Assembly: GCF_964020005.1 (NCBI RefSeq)
Contig: NZ_OZ026474.1
Span: forward strand, 62,001-126,000
Reading direction: 5' to 3'
From: Spiroplasma endosymbiont of Atherix ibis
GTDB taxonomy: Bacteria; Bacillota_I; Bacilli_A; Mycoplasmatales; Mycoplasmataceae
DNA length: 64,000 bases
The translations under genes and the position numbers were made by a program. The notes beneath the pieces were generated by a model. The model saw only the letters and a list, made by a program, of their open reading frames with translations, had not been told where the DNA came from and made no database searches. Positions 18,235 to 44,229 of the stretch are shown here, in pieces (position 1 is the stretch's first letter; every line of letters begins with the position of its first letter).

Positions 18235-18647
18235 GGGGGTGCCCCGGTTTCGACAGGATACATCTGGTCCATAACTGCAGTGGTTTGGTAGACCTTAATA
18301 CTACTAGGTTTGATAAAATGCAAACGAAGAAAAAAATGAATTTGAAATGCCAGCATTTATGATCAATAATGCATCAGCTGGAGTTGCTTTAGCAGCTTAA
18401 TAAACTATCGAAGTTTATAGCAATTCAACGTTATGAAGTGTGTTTGTGCTTCATTGATTAACGTATTAACTAGCACAATAGAATAAATGATTTTAATGAT
18501 AAATTTATTTGAAATATAATCATTAACGCTATAAAATTGAATCTTGTTGAATCTGTTGTTTTATAGTGTAAGTTAGATACAACTAAACTGTAGATGTTAT
18601 GTGTTGGAGTATTTTGGACGCGGGTTCGATTCCCGCCATCTCCACCA
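18235..18647 (+). ncRNA. ssrA: tmRNA (transfer-messenger RNA)
   Basis: tmRNA rescues ribosomes stalled on broken mRNA. The 5' end GGGGGTGCCCCGGTTTCGAC and the 3' end GGTTCGATTCCCGCC-ATCTCCACCA form the tRNA-like domain: the first seven bases pair with CATCTCC before ACCA, allowing two G-U pairs. The T-arm GGTTCGATTCC and the encoded CCA are clear. The tag reading frame starts at GCA 18320 and ends with TAA TAA at 18398: it begins ANEEKNEFEMPAFMINN and ends GVALAA (26 residues). The core resembles other Spiroplasma/Mycoplasma tags, which contain EMPAFMINNASAG. Partners SmpB and RNase R are encoded upstream at 12.8-15.3 kb. Confidence 0.97.
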
Positions 18648-23409: not shown

Positions 23410-23428
23410 AAAAGTGTAAATTAAAAAA

Positions 23429-23491
23429 GCTTTTATAAGCCAATAAAATGGGTTGGTTTTTCTACAATGTACCTTATACATTTCTAAAAGC
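23429..23491 (+). promoter_or_regulatory. Purine riboswitch aptamer, guanine class
   Basis: The aptamer fits the purine riboswitch three-way junction. P1 is GCTTTT (23429-23434) with AAAAGC (23486-23491). J1/2 is ATAA. P2 is GCCAAT with GTTGGT around a 7-base loop AAAATGG. J2/3 contains the invariant TTTCTAC. P3 is AATGT with ACATT around a loop carrying CC, able to make the loop-loop G-C pairs with the GG of L2. J3/1 is TCT, so the specificity base (xpt position 74, here 23484) is C, which selects guanine over adenine. J2/3 is canonical, unlike the 2'-deoxyguanosine variants of Mesoplasma. It lies upstream of the nucleoside ABC importer and deoD. The expression platform is not obvious; it may involve the T-runs near 23530. 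Confidence 0.88.
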
Positions 23492-23596
23492 GATATTAAG
23501 AAAATTAAAATAAAAAAAATTATTTATGATTTTTTGTTTTTTTATGAATAATAGCTGAAGTTAATTTACGCAAATTAAGTATAGGAGAAAAATGAA

Positions 23597-40225: not shown

Positions 40226-40350
40226 ACAATTTCACGAAAAAAAGACTTTGTAAATTTGGTGAAAGTCCAAAACTGTACCAGCACCTGTAATAAGGATATA
40301 AATTAGAATATTAATTTATAACAATTTGAGTCAGATAGCACGTCTTTTTA
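40226..40350 (+). promoter_or_regulatory. Cobalamin-riboswitch-like aptamer upstream of nrdFIE
   Basis: The sequence follows the cobalamin riboswitch core in order. TTTGGTGAAAGTCCAAA (40255-40271) is the GGUGxAAxUCC hairpin. ACTGTACCAGCACCTGTAA (40272-40290) matches 17 of 19 positions of RCNGNNCCCGCNRCUGURA. An extra hairpin lies at 40298-40319. AGTCAGATAGCACGTC (40329-40344) resembles the B12 box (RAGYCAGGAKACCUGCC). The 3' part pairs with the 5' flank: AAAAAGAC (40239-40246) with GTCTTTTT (40342-40349), as expected for the closing helix. A strong intrinsic terminator follows. The ligand cannot be read from the sequence; the B12 box differs at several positions. Confidence 0.8.
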
Positions 40351-40402
40351 TTAAATCTTTTACTGGCTATAAAAGAGAATATTTATTTGATAATATTTTA
40401 GC

Positions 40403-40430
40403 CACGATACAAAAATCGTGTTTTTGTTTC
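40403..40430 (+). terminator. Intrinsic terminator, likely expression platform of the nrd riboswitch
   Basis: A perfect stem CACGAT / ATCGTG (40403-40408 with 40415-40420) has loop ACAAAA and a following TTTTTGTTT run. It is preceded by a GGCTA/TAGCC hairpin (40365-40403). The 3' arm TCGTG can alternatively pair with CACGA at 40233-40237 or with CACG in the B12-box region, which offers a switching mechanism (inference). Confidence 0.75.
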
Positions 40431-40577: not shown

Positions 40578-41600
40578 ATGGCAAAGAAAAAAAACCAGTA
40601 CTATTACGATTCTCTTTCTCCAATTGAGTTTGCAATGAGTAAATTTAAAGGAAGAATGAGATCAGTAAATTGAAATATTATGAATGATGATAAAGATTTA
40701 GAGGTTTGAAATAGAGCAACTCAAAATTTCTGATTACCTGAAAAAATTCCAGTTTCAAATGATTTAGTATCTTGAAAAACTTTAACTCCAGAATGACAAC
40801 AATTAGTTACAAGAACTTTTACAGGATTAACATTGCTTGATACAATACAAGCAACTGTAGGAGATGTTGCACAAGTTCCAAATTCATTAACAGATCATGA
40901 ACAAGTAATTTATACTAATTTTGCATTTATGGTAGCAGTTCATGCAAGATCATATGGAACAATTTTTTCTACTTTATGTTCAAGTGAACAAATTGAAGAA
41001 GCGCATGAATGAGTAATTAATTGTAAAAGTTTGCAAGAAAGAGCTAAGGCTTTAATTCCTTATTATGTGGGAAATGATTCTTTAAAATCTAAAGTAGCAG
41101 CAGCACTTATGCCAGGGTTTTTATTATATGGTGGATTTTATTTACCATTTTATTTATCATCTCGTGGTAAATTACCAAATACTTCAGATATAATAAGATT
41201 AATTTTAAGAGATAAAGTTATTCATAACTATTATAGTGGTTATAAATATCAAAGAAAAGTTGAAAAATTATCTCCTAAAGAACAAGCTGAAATGAAAAAA
41301 TTTGTTTTTGATTTATTATATGAATTGATTGATTTAGAAAATAAATTTTTATATGAGTTATATGATGGATTTGGAATTGCAGATGATGCAGTAAGATTTA
41401 GTTTATATAATGCTGGAAAGTTTTTACAAAACTTAGGTTATGAATCTCCATTTACTGAAGAAGAGACAAGAATTGAACCTGAGATTTTTACTCAATTATC
41501 AGCTAGAGCTGATGAAAATCATGATTTCTTTTCTGGAAATGGTTCATCATATGTTATGGGTGTTACTGAAGAAACTTCAGATGAAGATTGAGAATTTTAA
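40578..41600 (+). CDS. nrdF: Ribonucleotide reductase R2 subunit, metal-free class Ie type
   Basis: R2 supplies the radical for dNTP synthesis by NrdE. The 340-residue protein is clearly NrdF (TLLDTIQATVGD, AVHARSYGTIFSTL, GFYLPFYLSSRGKLP), but three metal-binding Glu are replaced: Val119 in FMVAVHARSY, Pro179 in LMPGFLLYGG and Lys213 in LILRDKVIHNYY. Asp88, His122 and His216 remain. This V/P/K set defines the class Ie R2 described in Mesoplasma florum, which works without metal through a DOPA radical on Tyr126; Tyr126 is present here. First gene of nrdFIE, behind the riboswitch-like leader. AGGAAAGG lies upstream. Confidence 0.96.
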
Positions 41601-41603
41601 AAA

Positions 41604-42071
41604 ATGCATGAAGATGTAATAAAAATATCTAAAAAATATATTAAAAAACCAAAAGGAAAAGTATTTGTTGTATATTTTTCCTCAATATCAAACAACACAC
41701 ATAGATTTATGGAAAAGTTAGATGTAAATTATTCAAGAATTCCTTACGATTTAGAAAATGAATTAATTGTAGATAAGGAATATGTTTTAATAACTCCAAC
41801 ATATGCTGGTGGTGGTGGAGATAAAAAAGGATCTGTTCCAGCTCAAGTTGTAAAATTTTTAAATAATGAAGTTAATAGAAATTTGTGTAGAGGTGTAATA
41901 GCATCAGGAAATACAAATTTTGGTGACACATTTGCTATTGCAGGACCTATAATTTCAAAAAAATTAAAAGTACCTTTTTTATATCAATTTGAACTTTTAG
42001 GAACAAGACATGATGTTGATACAGTTAGAAAAATCTTAGACGATTTATGAGAGGAAAAAGAAAATGAATAA
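41604..42071 (+). CDS. nrdI: Flavodoxin-like protein NrdI
   Basis: NrdI delivers an oxidant (superoxide) to NrdF; in class Ie it is needed to convert the R2 Tyr to DOPA. The 155-residue protein has the FMN phosphate loop [18 protein letters not shown], the TPTYAGGGG isoalloxazine loop and [17 protein letters not shown]. It starts 3 bases after nrdF and overlaps nrdE by 8 bases. The C-terminal WEEKENE tail is read through a TGA Trp codon. Confidence 0.95.
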
Positions 42072-44229
42072 AGATAGTATCAAAAGTCTTTCTGGAACAA
42101 ATGAATCTGATGAATATATAAAATTGAATGCTAGAGCAAAATTATTTGTTCCAGGGCAAGATAACTTTAAACTAGATATTCAAGCAGCAGAATTGTATAT
42201 GAAAGAGCATATTGAACCTAATATGATGAAATTTTCATCAGTGAAAGAAAGAATAGAATATTTAGTAAAAAATAAATACTATGATGAAAAAGTTATTGAA
42301 AAGTATTCAATAAAAGAAATTGAAGATTTAACAGATTATGCATACTCATTTAACTTTAAATTTCCAAGTTTTATGGGAGCATTAAAATTCTTTAATGCTT
42401 ATGGATTAAAATCATTTGATGGAAAAAAATATTTAGAAAACTATGAAGATAGAGTAGTTTTAAATTCTTTATTTTTAGCTGGTGGTGATTTTCAAAAAGC
42501 TAAAAATATTTTAAAACAAATAATTATGGGAAGATTTCAACCAGCAACACCAACATTTTTAAATGCAGGTAAAAAGCAAAGAGGAGAGTATGTATCTTGT
42601 TACTTATTAAGAGTAGAAGATAATATGGAATCAATTGCTAGAGCAGTTACCACTTCATTACAATTATCAAAAAGAGGTGGTGGGGTTGCTTTATGTTTAA
42701 CTAATCTAAGAGAATTTGGAGCACCAATTAAAAATATTGAAAATCAAGCAACAGGTGTTATTCCAGTAATGAAAATTTTAGAGGATTCATTTTCATATGC
42801 AAATCAATTAGGACAAAGACAAGGAGCTGGAGCAGTTTACTTAAATGTTCATCACCCTGACATTATGTCTTTCTTAGATACAAAACGTGAAAATGCTGAT
42901 GAAAAAATTAGAATTAAATCATTGTCATTGGGAGTAGTTATTCCAGATATTACTTTTGAATTAGCAAAAGAAAATAAGGAAATGGCTTTATTTAGTCCTT
43001 ATGATATTGAAAGAGTTTATAAAAAACCATTTTCAGATATTTCTGTAACAGAAGAATATGAAAATATGTTAAAAAACTCAGAAATAAAAAAAACTTATAT
43101 TAATGCAAGAAAATTGTTTCAAACAATTGCTGAATTACATTTTGAAAGTGGATATCCTTATTTATTATTTGATGATACTGTAAATAATAATAATGCTCAT
43201 CCAGTAGCTGGAAGAATTGTTATGAGTAATTTATGTAGTGAAATTGTTCAAGTTTCTACACCAAGTGAATTTAATTCTGATTTATCTTTTTCAAAAGTTG
43301 GTGAAGATATATGTTGTAATTTAGGAAGTATGAATATTGCAAAAACAATGGAAAGTGGAGAAGAATTTTCAGAAGTAATTTATAACTCAATTCTTGCTTT
43401 AGATCATGTTTCAAGAAATAGTGATTTATCAAGTGCTCAATCAATTGAAAATGGAAATAAAAATAATCATGCATTAGGTTTAGGAGCTATGAATTTACAT
43501 GGATTTTTAGCAACAAATCATATTTATTATAATTCTCCAGAAGCAATTGATTTTACAAATATTTTCTTTTATACAATGGCTTTTCATGCTTTTAAAGCCT
43601 CTAATAAATTAGCAAAAGAATTTGGTTCATTTTCAGGATTTAAAATTTCTAAATTTGCTGATGGCTCATACTTTGAAAAATATACAAAATGTGAAAAAAA
43701 TAAGTGAATTCCAGAATCAAATACAGTCAAAAAAATATTTGAAAAATATAATGTTACAATTCCAAGTCAAGAAGATTGAATTTCTTTATCAAAAGAAATT
43801 CAATCTTCAGGATTAGCGAATTCGCACTTAATGGCTGTTGCTCCAACTGGATCAATTAGTTACTTATCTTCATGTACACCAAGTTTACAACCTGTAGTTG
43901 CACCAGTTGAAGTAAGAAAAGAGGGAAAACTTGGAAGAGTTTATGTACCTGCATATAAAATTGATTTTGATAATATGGGTTACTATTCATTAGGAGCATA
44001 TGAAGTTGGACCAAATCCAATTATTGATATTGCAGCTGCAGCTCAACAACATGTTGATCAAGCAATATCATTAACATTATTTATGACAGATCAAGTAACA
44101 ACAAGAGATTTAAATAAAGCATATATTAGAGCTTTTAAAAAAGGATGTGCTTCAATTTATTATGTTAGAGTTCGTCAAGAAGTACTTGAAAATAGTGAAA
44201 ATTATGAATGTGATGCTTGTGTTATATAA
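42064..44229 (+). CDS. nrdE: Ribonucleoside-diphosphate reductase large subunit (class Ib type)
   Basis: NrdE reduces ribonucleoside diphosphates. The 721-residue protein has [22 protein letters not shown] with the first catalytic Cys, the loop [29 protein letters not shown] with the radical Cys and asparagine context, [12 protein letters not shown], and the C-terminal redox pair CDACVI, which is re-reduced by thioredoxin or NrdH. No N-terminal ATP cone is seen, as expected for NrdE. Its neighbours NrdF and NrdI complete the system; trxB at 7943 can supply reducing power. Confidence 0.97.

Follow-up and report, generated by a model that had tools for sequence, protein, structure and literature searches.

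The window analysed here is a 64,000-nt stretch of the genome of the Spiroplasma endosymbiont of Atherix ibis (one contig, 1,072,050 bp, 99.87% complete; G000 in our survey), and it carries on its forward strand nrdF (40578-41600), nrdI (41604-42071) and nrdE (42064-44229), preceded by a leader RNA (40234-40425) that is a compact relative of the cobalamin riboswitches with a kissing hairpin, an antiterminator and a terminator. Elsewhere on the same strand we observe an ordinary tmRNA (18235-18647) and a purine riboswitch (23411-23506; RF00167, 44.5 bits, above the gathering score), the latter preceding the start of a lipoprotein-like ORF (23597) and an ABC ATPase gene (24960) that are likely involved in nucleoside uptake.

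The class Ie RNR operon

Under translation table 4, nrdF is a stop-free frame of 340 aa with seven TGA codons read as Trp. Residues counted on the protein place V119, P179 and K213 where three metal-ligand glutamates would stand, while the conserved Asp (D88), two His (H122, H216), Q91 and the Tyr that becomes DOPA (Y126) are retained. The downstream genes encode the flavodoxin-like activator NrdI (155 aa; TIGR00333, 178 bits, cut-off 74.65) and the R1 catalytic subunit NrdE (721 aa; TIGR04170, 988 bits, cut-off 750), with an overlap of 8 nt between them. The top PDB match in a phmmer search is the R2 of Mesoplasma florum (6gp2, also 6gp3, 8bt3 and 8bt4; E = 1.7e-206), so that solved structures are available at 87% identity. 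An earlier note on this DNA had reported the Val119/Pro179/Lys213 substitutions with Tyr126, His122 and His216 kept, had filed the protein as a class Ie (VPK) R2 in a complete nrdF-nrdI-nrdE operon, and had proposed an alignment with the M. florum protein as a check. That alignment (HMMER, 6gp2/8bt3) is gapless with 295/340 identities, the glutamates are replaced in both, and W52, D88, Q91, V119, H122, Y126, P179, K213 and H216 are identical; across residues 80-130 and 172-220 the only differences are T128/S and S195/A. The residue count, the intact operon and the orthologues described below thus agree with the earlier reading of the genes, which had overlooked the leader RNA.

The M. florum enzyme shares the VPK triad, D88, Q91, H122, Y126, H216 and the nrdFIE order with the window operon, and at the active-site residues checked the two do not differ. 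Metal-free activity has been published for M. florum R2 (PMC11846895), as have the nrdFIE order and the NrdI-dependent DOPA chemistry of class Ie, with which the window operon agrees (PMC11846895). The R2 of Gardnerella vaginalis, whose metal-free DOPA chemistry is also described (PMC11846895), has its three metal glutamates replaced as well (PDB 8rag, 8rah), but by QSK rather than VPK, scores 409 bits against 688 for M. florum R2 in a phmmer search with the window protein, and lies in an nrdHIEF rather than an nrdFIE operon. On this basis we class the window NrdF as an unremarkable VPK-type class Ie R2 of a kind already known, whose metal independence would follow by homology.

A whole-genome search for NrdF over 320 genomes of the order gave a match in 137, comprising 104 at ≥74% identity, 18 at 29 to 35% and 15 very weak ones; we read the loci of all 104 high-identity and all 18 divergent matches and of 8 of the 15 very weak ones (L204-L211). 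The same seven residues (VPK) occur in 104/104 high-identity orthologues, each with nrdF, nrdI and nrdE on one strand and in the same order, whereas the metal-ligand set D-E-H-Y-E-E-H is found in all 18 divergent NrdFs, which come from other families of the order. There are no intermediate triads among the 122 alignable NrdFs (104 VPK, 18 EEE). L204, one of the very weak matches, has D-E-H-Y-E-E-H as well; the other seven read, the class Ia-like L205-L211, align unreliably at position 179 and were left out of the triad reading. The gapless M. florum alignment and the 104 concordant orthologues exclude a VPK triad produced by chance or misalignment. In most of the divergent loci (L186-L203) NrdF is accompanied by an NrdI and an NrdE of its own, with nrdF often divergent from nrdI-nrdE; L203 has no nrdI or nrdE within the 10 kb read. 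With respect to named genomes, the matches listed (80 of 589 confirmed loci) comprise 8 VPK, 3 QSK and 69 metal-type proteins, the 8 VPK loci belonging to mollicutes, Streptococcus ictaluri, Lactobacillus kitasatonis and an Atopobium. This VPK distribution is already published, with John et al. (2025) reporting VPK R2 proteins in 128 GTDB genomes, 93 of them Mycoplasmatales and nearly all with nrdFIE (PMC11846895), and the window protein is therefore a further case of a known enzyme.

Whole-genome searches of the window genome found one NrdF, one PF02867 gene (the window's nrdE), no class III RNR (NrdD) and no class II RNR over the TIGR02504 cut-off, which leaves nrdFIE as the sole RNR detected. 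NrdD is present in 14 of the 20 genomes searched in the window genus, with the window genome counted among the 20. Because NrdI makes class Ie oxygen-requiring, this species should need oxygen for making dNTPs de novo.

In the specific case of family f5, nrdI and nrdE form a single frame without a stop in 7 of the 8 VPK genomes (G040, G053, G058, G316, G317, G318 and G319, with G314 unfused), and these are the only fusions among the 104 VPK loci sets. The fusion loci are L034:5032-7635, L027, L029, L030, L033 (= L120), L121, L124 and L125; the junction is free of ATG, GTG and TTG in the codons read at six loci, and the 868-aa product of L034 matches both NrdI (175 bits, cut-off 74.65) and NrdE (976 bits, cut-off 750). 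We found no publication naming an NrdI-NrdE fusion in the openly accessible literature. For the QSK enzyme, R1 has been reported to help DOPA formation (PMC11846895), and a sister family with NrdI and NrdE in one polypeptide is relevant to why it does so in class Ie.

A compact cobalamin-type leader upstream of nrdF

The protein is of a known kind, and the novelty of the locus lies in the RNA ahead of nrdF. Its aptamer (40236-40348, forward strand, as are all leader elements) matches Rfam AdoCbl-II at 27.1 bits (E = 3.8e-4 in 531 nt) under a permissive Rfam threshold, and the default scan of the window does not report it. Because this score is below the AdoCbl-II gathering score of 36.5 bits, we file the aptamer as a relative, and not a member, of Cobalamin (RF00174) and AdoCbl-II (RF01689); RF00174 itself has no match over cut-off in the window genome in the 320-genome survey. 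In the predicted fold, a closing stem pairs 40239-40246 with 40342-40349. Within it lie the P4 hairpin (40255-40271, pairing 40255-40259 with 40267-40271, with pairs invariant in 6/6 leaders), the L5 segment CCAG (40278-40281), a variable hairpin at the P7 position (40298-40319, pairing 40298-40305 with 40312-40319, 85.7% of cells paired) and a J6/3-like strand GAGTCAG that is also the 3' arm of P6 (40328-40334, 6/7 columns invariant). The P8-P11 peripheral region is missing, with a short AU-rich hairpin in its place. That region is mostly missing in AdoCbl-II too, and its presence is a criterion for RF00174 only.

Downstream of the aptamer, the P13 hairpin (40356-40376) presents in its loop L13 the sequence CTGG (40363-40366), the kissing-loop partner of L5 in the leader comparison. 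The antiterminator 5' strand TGGCTA (40364-40369) faces TAGCCA (40399-40404), and an intrinsic terminator, CACGAT-loop-ATCGTG followed by TTTTT, spans 40403-40420. L13 can thus pair alternatively with L5 (CCAG:CTGG) or with the terminator shoulder (TGGCTA:TAGCCA), and the leader combines the L5-L13 kissing loop with the expression platform, antiterminator and terminator, of a cobalamin riboswitch. The terminator finder reports 2 terminator-like sites in the leader region against 0.0 expected in shuffles, and the fold as a whole exceeds shuffles in stability by only a small margin (z = −1.6). In comparison with RF00174 and RF01689, P4, L5, the J6/3-like strand, the P13 docking loop and the terminator platform are held in common, while the window copy differs in being compact and below the gathering scores.

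We observe the compact form in six species, namely the window species and G019, G009, G017, G002 and G007, all six of which are missing class II RNR; according to the NrdF tree and leader searches, the RNA has been lost in a nested subclade of close relatives (G001, G004, G010). P4, P5, L5 and P13 are invariant across the six leaders, and the core stretches are invariant at 37/40, 6/7, 24/24 and 24/27 columns (86 to 100%), compared with 39/104 four-fold sites of nrdF (38%) and 56/177 columns between terminator and start codon in the same species. This core invariance, far above that of the four-fold sites, speaks for a functional RNA. There is little covariation among the six leaders: two pairs of the P7-position hairpin show a compensatory A-U to G-C change, a count reached by 27/500 shuffles, and one P6 pair is broken in the closest relative (L003, G019).

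The antiterminator pairing is kept in 11/11 leaders, two having a mismatched last pair and one a G-U pair, and L026 and L139 show a two-pair compensatory change from CT/AG to TC/GA. These pairs were compared by anchored strings and not in the MAFFT alignment of the 11 segments, where the shoulder of L026 and L139 is out of place. The L5-L13 pairing has 4 bp in the window type and 5 in L026 and L139, and in the other platform type most leaders pair CCCAG with CTGGG, as judged by eye. Among the leaders of 16 relatives' loci, RF00174 is over threshold in L018 (74.4 bits), L026 (74.4), L031 (67.8) and L012 (38.3), L004-L007 give sub-threshold cobalamin matches (24.0 to 27.3 bits), and seven other leaders scanned have none. 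A covariance model (R1) for which the six compact leaders were the sole input finds exactly one copy in the window genome, with the best other match in the window at 20.1 bits (E = 0.22), and recovers relatives' cobalamin riboswitches at 63 to 78 bits; its matches include the nrdF leaders of G036, G031, G005, G219 and G025. The G005 riboswitch, over the RF00174 threshold (38.3 bits), has P13, antiterminator and terminator sequence in common with the window.

Cobalamin riboswitches and class II RNR across the order

RF00174 is over cut-off in 35/320 genomes of the order, and 17 of the 104 VPK genomes have it 122 to 347 nt upstream of nrdF on the same strand, at distances that we worked out by hand from the survey coordinates (G005, G015, G025, G031, G036, G040, G053, G058, G205, G207, G214, G219, G314, G316, G317, G318 and G319). 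A class II RNR over the TIGR02504 cut-off is found in 13/17 of these genomes versus 4/87 of the other VPK genomes (Fisher, P = 3.9e-10, ignoring kinship), and the 13 span 7 genera and 2 families. One such class II protein, of 834 aa, matches the vitamin B12-dependent RNR model NF005991 at 1295 bits (cut-off 854). With respect to the remaining four genomes, G005, G053 and G317 contain class II fragments or partial matches (in G005 the gene is fragmented and the riboswitch weakened), and no class II was seen in G316. Conversely, G003, G115, G220 and G301 have class II over cut-off, and G295 a partial match, without an nrdF riboswitch. The earlier note took metal independence for a likely adaptation to metal-starved hosts; these patterns point elsewhere, to nrdFIE being, in the relatives, a B12-independent partner of class II RNR behind a cobalamin riboswitch, as far as gene content can suggest. 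In the openly accessible literature we found no cobalamin riboswitch on a mollicute nrdF.

This arrangement is in line with Streptomyces coelicolor, in which a B12 riboswitch controls the B12-independent class Ia operon nrdABS beside the class II NrdJ (Borovok 2006, cited in PMC4991794). There the enzyme is class Ia and metal-dependent, whereas the mollicute enzyme is metal-free class Ie, and the window lineage no longer has the class II partner. A second point of comparison is the 2'-dG riboswitch ahead of nrdF known in M. florum (PMC12268651), a terminating OFF switch in the leader of the same gene with an unrelated aptamer of the purine family; the Mesoplasma nrdF leader L011 accordingly matches 2'-dG-I (88.7 bits), while the window leader is cobalamin-type.

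Cobalamin riboswitches also occur elsewhere among these genomes. In G205 one lies upstream of class III NrdD (riboswitch 166178-166348; NrdD, L212 on G205:C1, from 166715), and at G207:C1:136045-138460 an NrdD gene with many stops and a weaker riboswitch both look decayed. Six near-complete genomes of genus g8 (G204, G206, G208, G209, G212, G213) give no match for NrdF, NrdE, class II or class III, and five of the six retain cobalamin riboswitches.

As to B12 use in the window lineage, the closest counterpart in G000 of a riboswitch-linked ECF-S-like protein, whose reference copy sits 3' of a cobalamin riboswitch in G034, is 22% identical (22.8 bits); the protein reaches at least 60 bits in 19/60 genomes of the family. 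With no class II and only this distant relative, no B12 use is visible in G000. The PduO adenosyltransferase was tried as a marker of B12 use and was uninformative, being found in 0/60 family genomes, those with class II included. Among ORFs following non-nrd riboswitches, that in L220 is without a Pfam match at E 0.1, that in L222 matches ECF_trnsprt below cut-off and that in L229 scores above the cut-offs of two ECF S families, and given these mixed results a role in B12 uptake is only presumed.

A putative OFF switch and its alternatives

We consider it likely that the class Ie operon stands behind an OFF switch derived from a cobalamin riboswitch, with core and platform still under selection. 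The anatomy of the leader, its kinship to cobalamin riboswitches, its conservation and the association with class II are observed, and from here on we infer the OFF direction, the ligand and the physiological role. With ligand bound, L5 would kiss L13 (CCAG:CTGG), leaving L13 unavailable to TAGCCA, so that the terminator would form and nrdFIE would be off; with no ligand, TGGCTA would pair with TAGCCA and transcription would go on. Where a relative has a class II RNR, the presence of B12 would then silence the B12-independent enzyme. In the window lineage, class II has been lost and the aptamer is shortened, with core and platform kept under selection. By homology, the enzyme so controlled would be activated by NrdI, supplying reduced oxygen for the hydroxylation of Tyr126 to DOPA, and the DOPA radical would start catalysis in NrdE without Fe or Mn. 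On our best reading the switch was first tied to B12, and its present ligand is possibly still a corrinoid. That a B12 riboswitch has outlived B12 use altogether, its stripped-down aptamer having stayed under selection after the loss of class II and its transporter and now reading another corrinoid or another ligand while controlling the sole detected, metal-free RNR, seems to us unlikely.

It is rather unlikely that the leader is a decaying relic, purposeless after the loss of class II, or a merely fixed attenuator. Such a decay would fit the absence from G000 of class II and of anything closely related to the B12-linked transporter protein, the shortened, sub-threshold aptamer, the loss of the RNA in three close relatives, the broken P6 pair in G019 and the pairing of a fragmented class II with a weakened riboswitch in G005. 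It sits poorly, however, with a core that is 86 to 100% invariant in six species when only 38% of four-fold sites in the adjacent gene are, and with the full invariance of the L5 and L13 loops, which ligand-dependent docking needs. Conservation alone does not name a ligand, and no B12-dependent RNR was found in G000, so the conserved leader might instead serve to bind a protein or some other RNA-based regulator, having inherited its resemblance to a cobalamin aptamer but no longer using it to bind a small molecule. We regard this as quite improbable, given that conservation falls on residues of the cobalamin core and docking loops, and that the antiterminator/terminator module is the same as in the over-threshold riboswitch of G005.

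On the side of the enzyme, NrdF could bind metal here through D88, H122 and H216, or be inactive with dNTPs coming from salvage. Its metal-free status is homology-based, and the purine riboswitch ahead of the lipoprotein and ABC gene pair makes nucleoside uptake possible; but the metal-site substitutions and the second-sphere residues checked all equal those of M. florum R2, published as metal-free (PMC11846895), and class Ie is the only RNR detected in the genome, in an intact operon, which makes either variant highly improbable.

Under the preferred reading of a cobalamin-riboswitch-derived OFF switch, a metal-free RNR becomes connected to B12, and the mollicute class Ie operon looks, by genomics, like an RNA-switched, B12-independent spare of class II. 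The order offers a testable series, from a full switch with class II, through a weakened switch with broken class II and a compact one without class II, to none, and this series bears on how riboswitches shrink, change or die.
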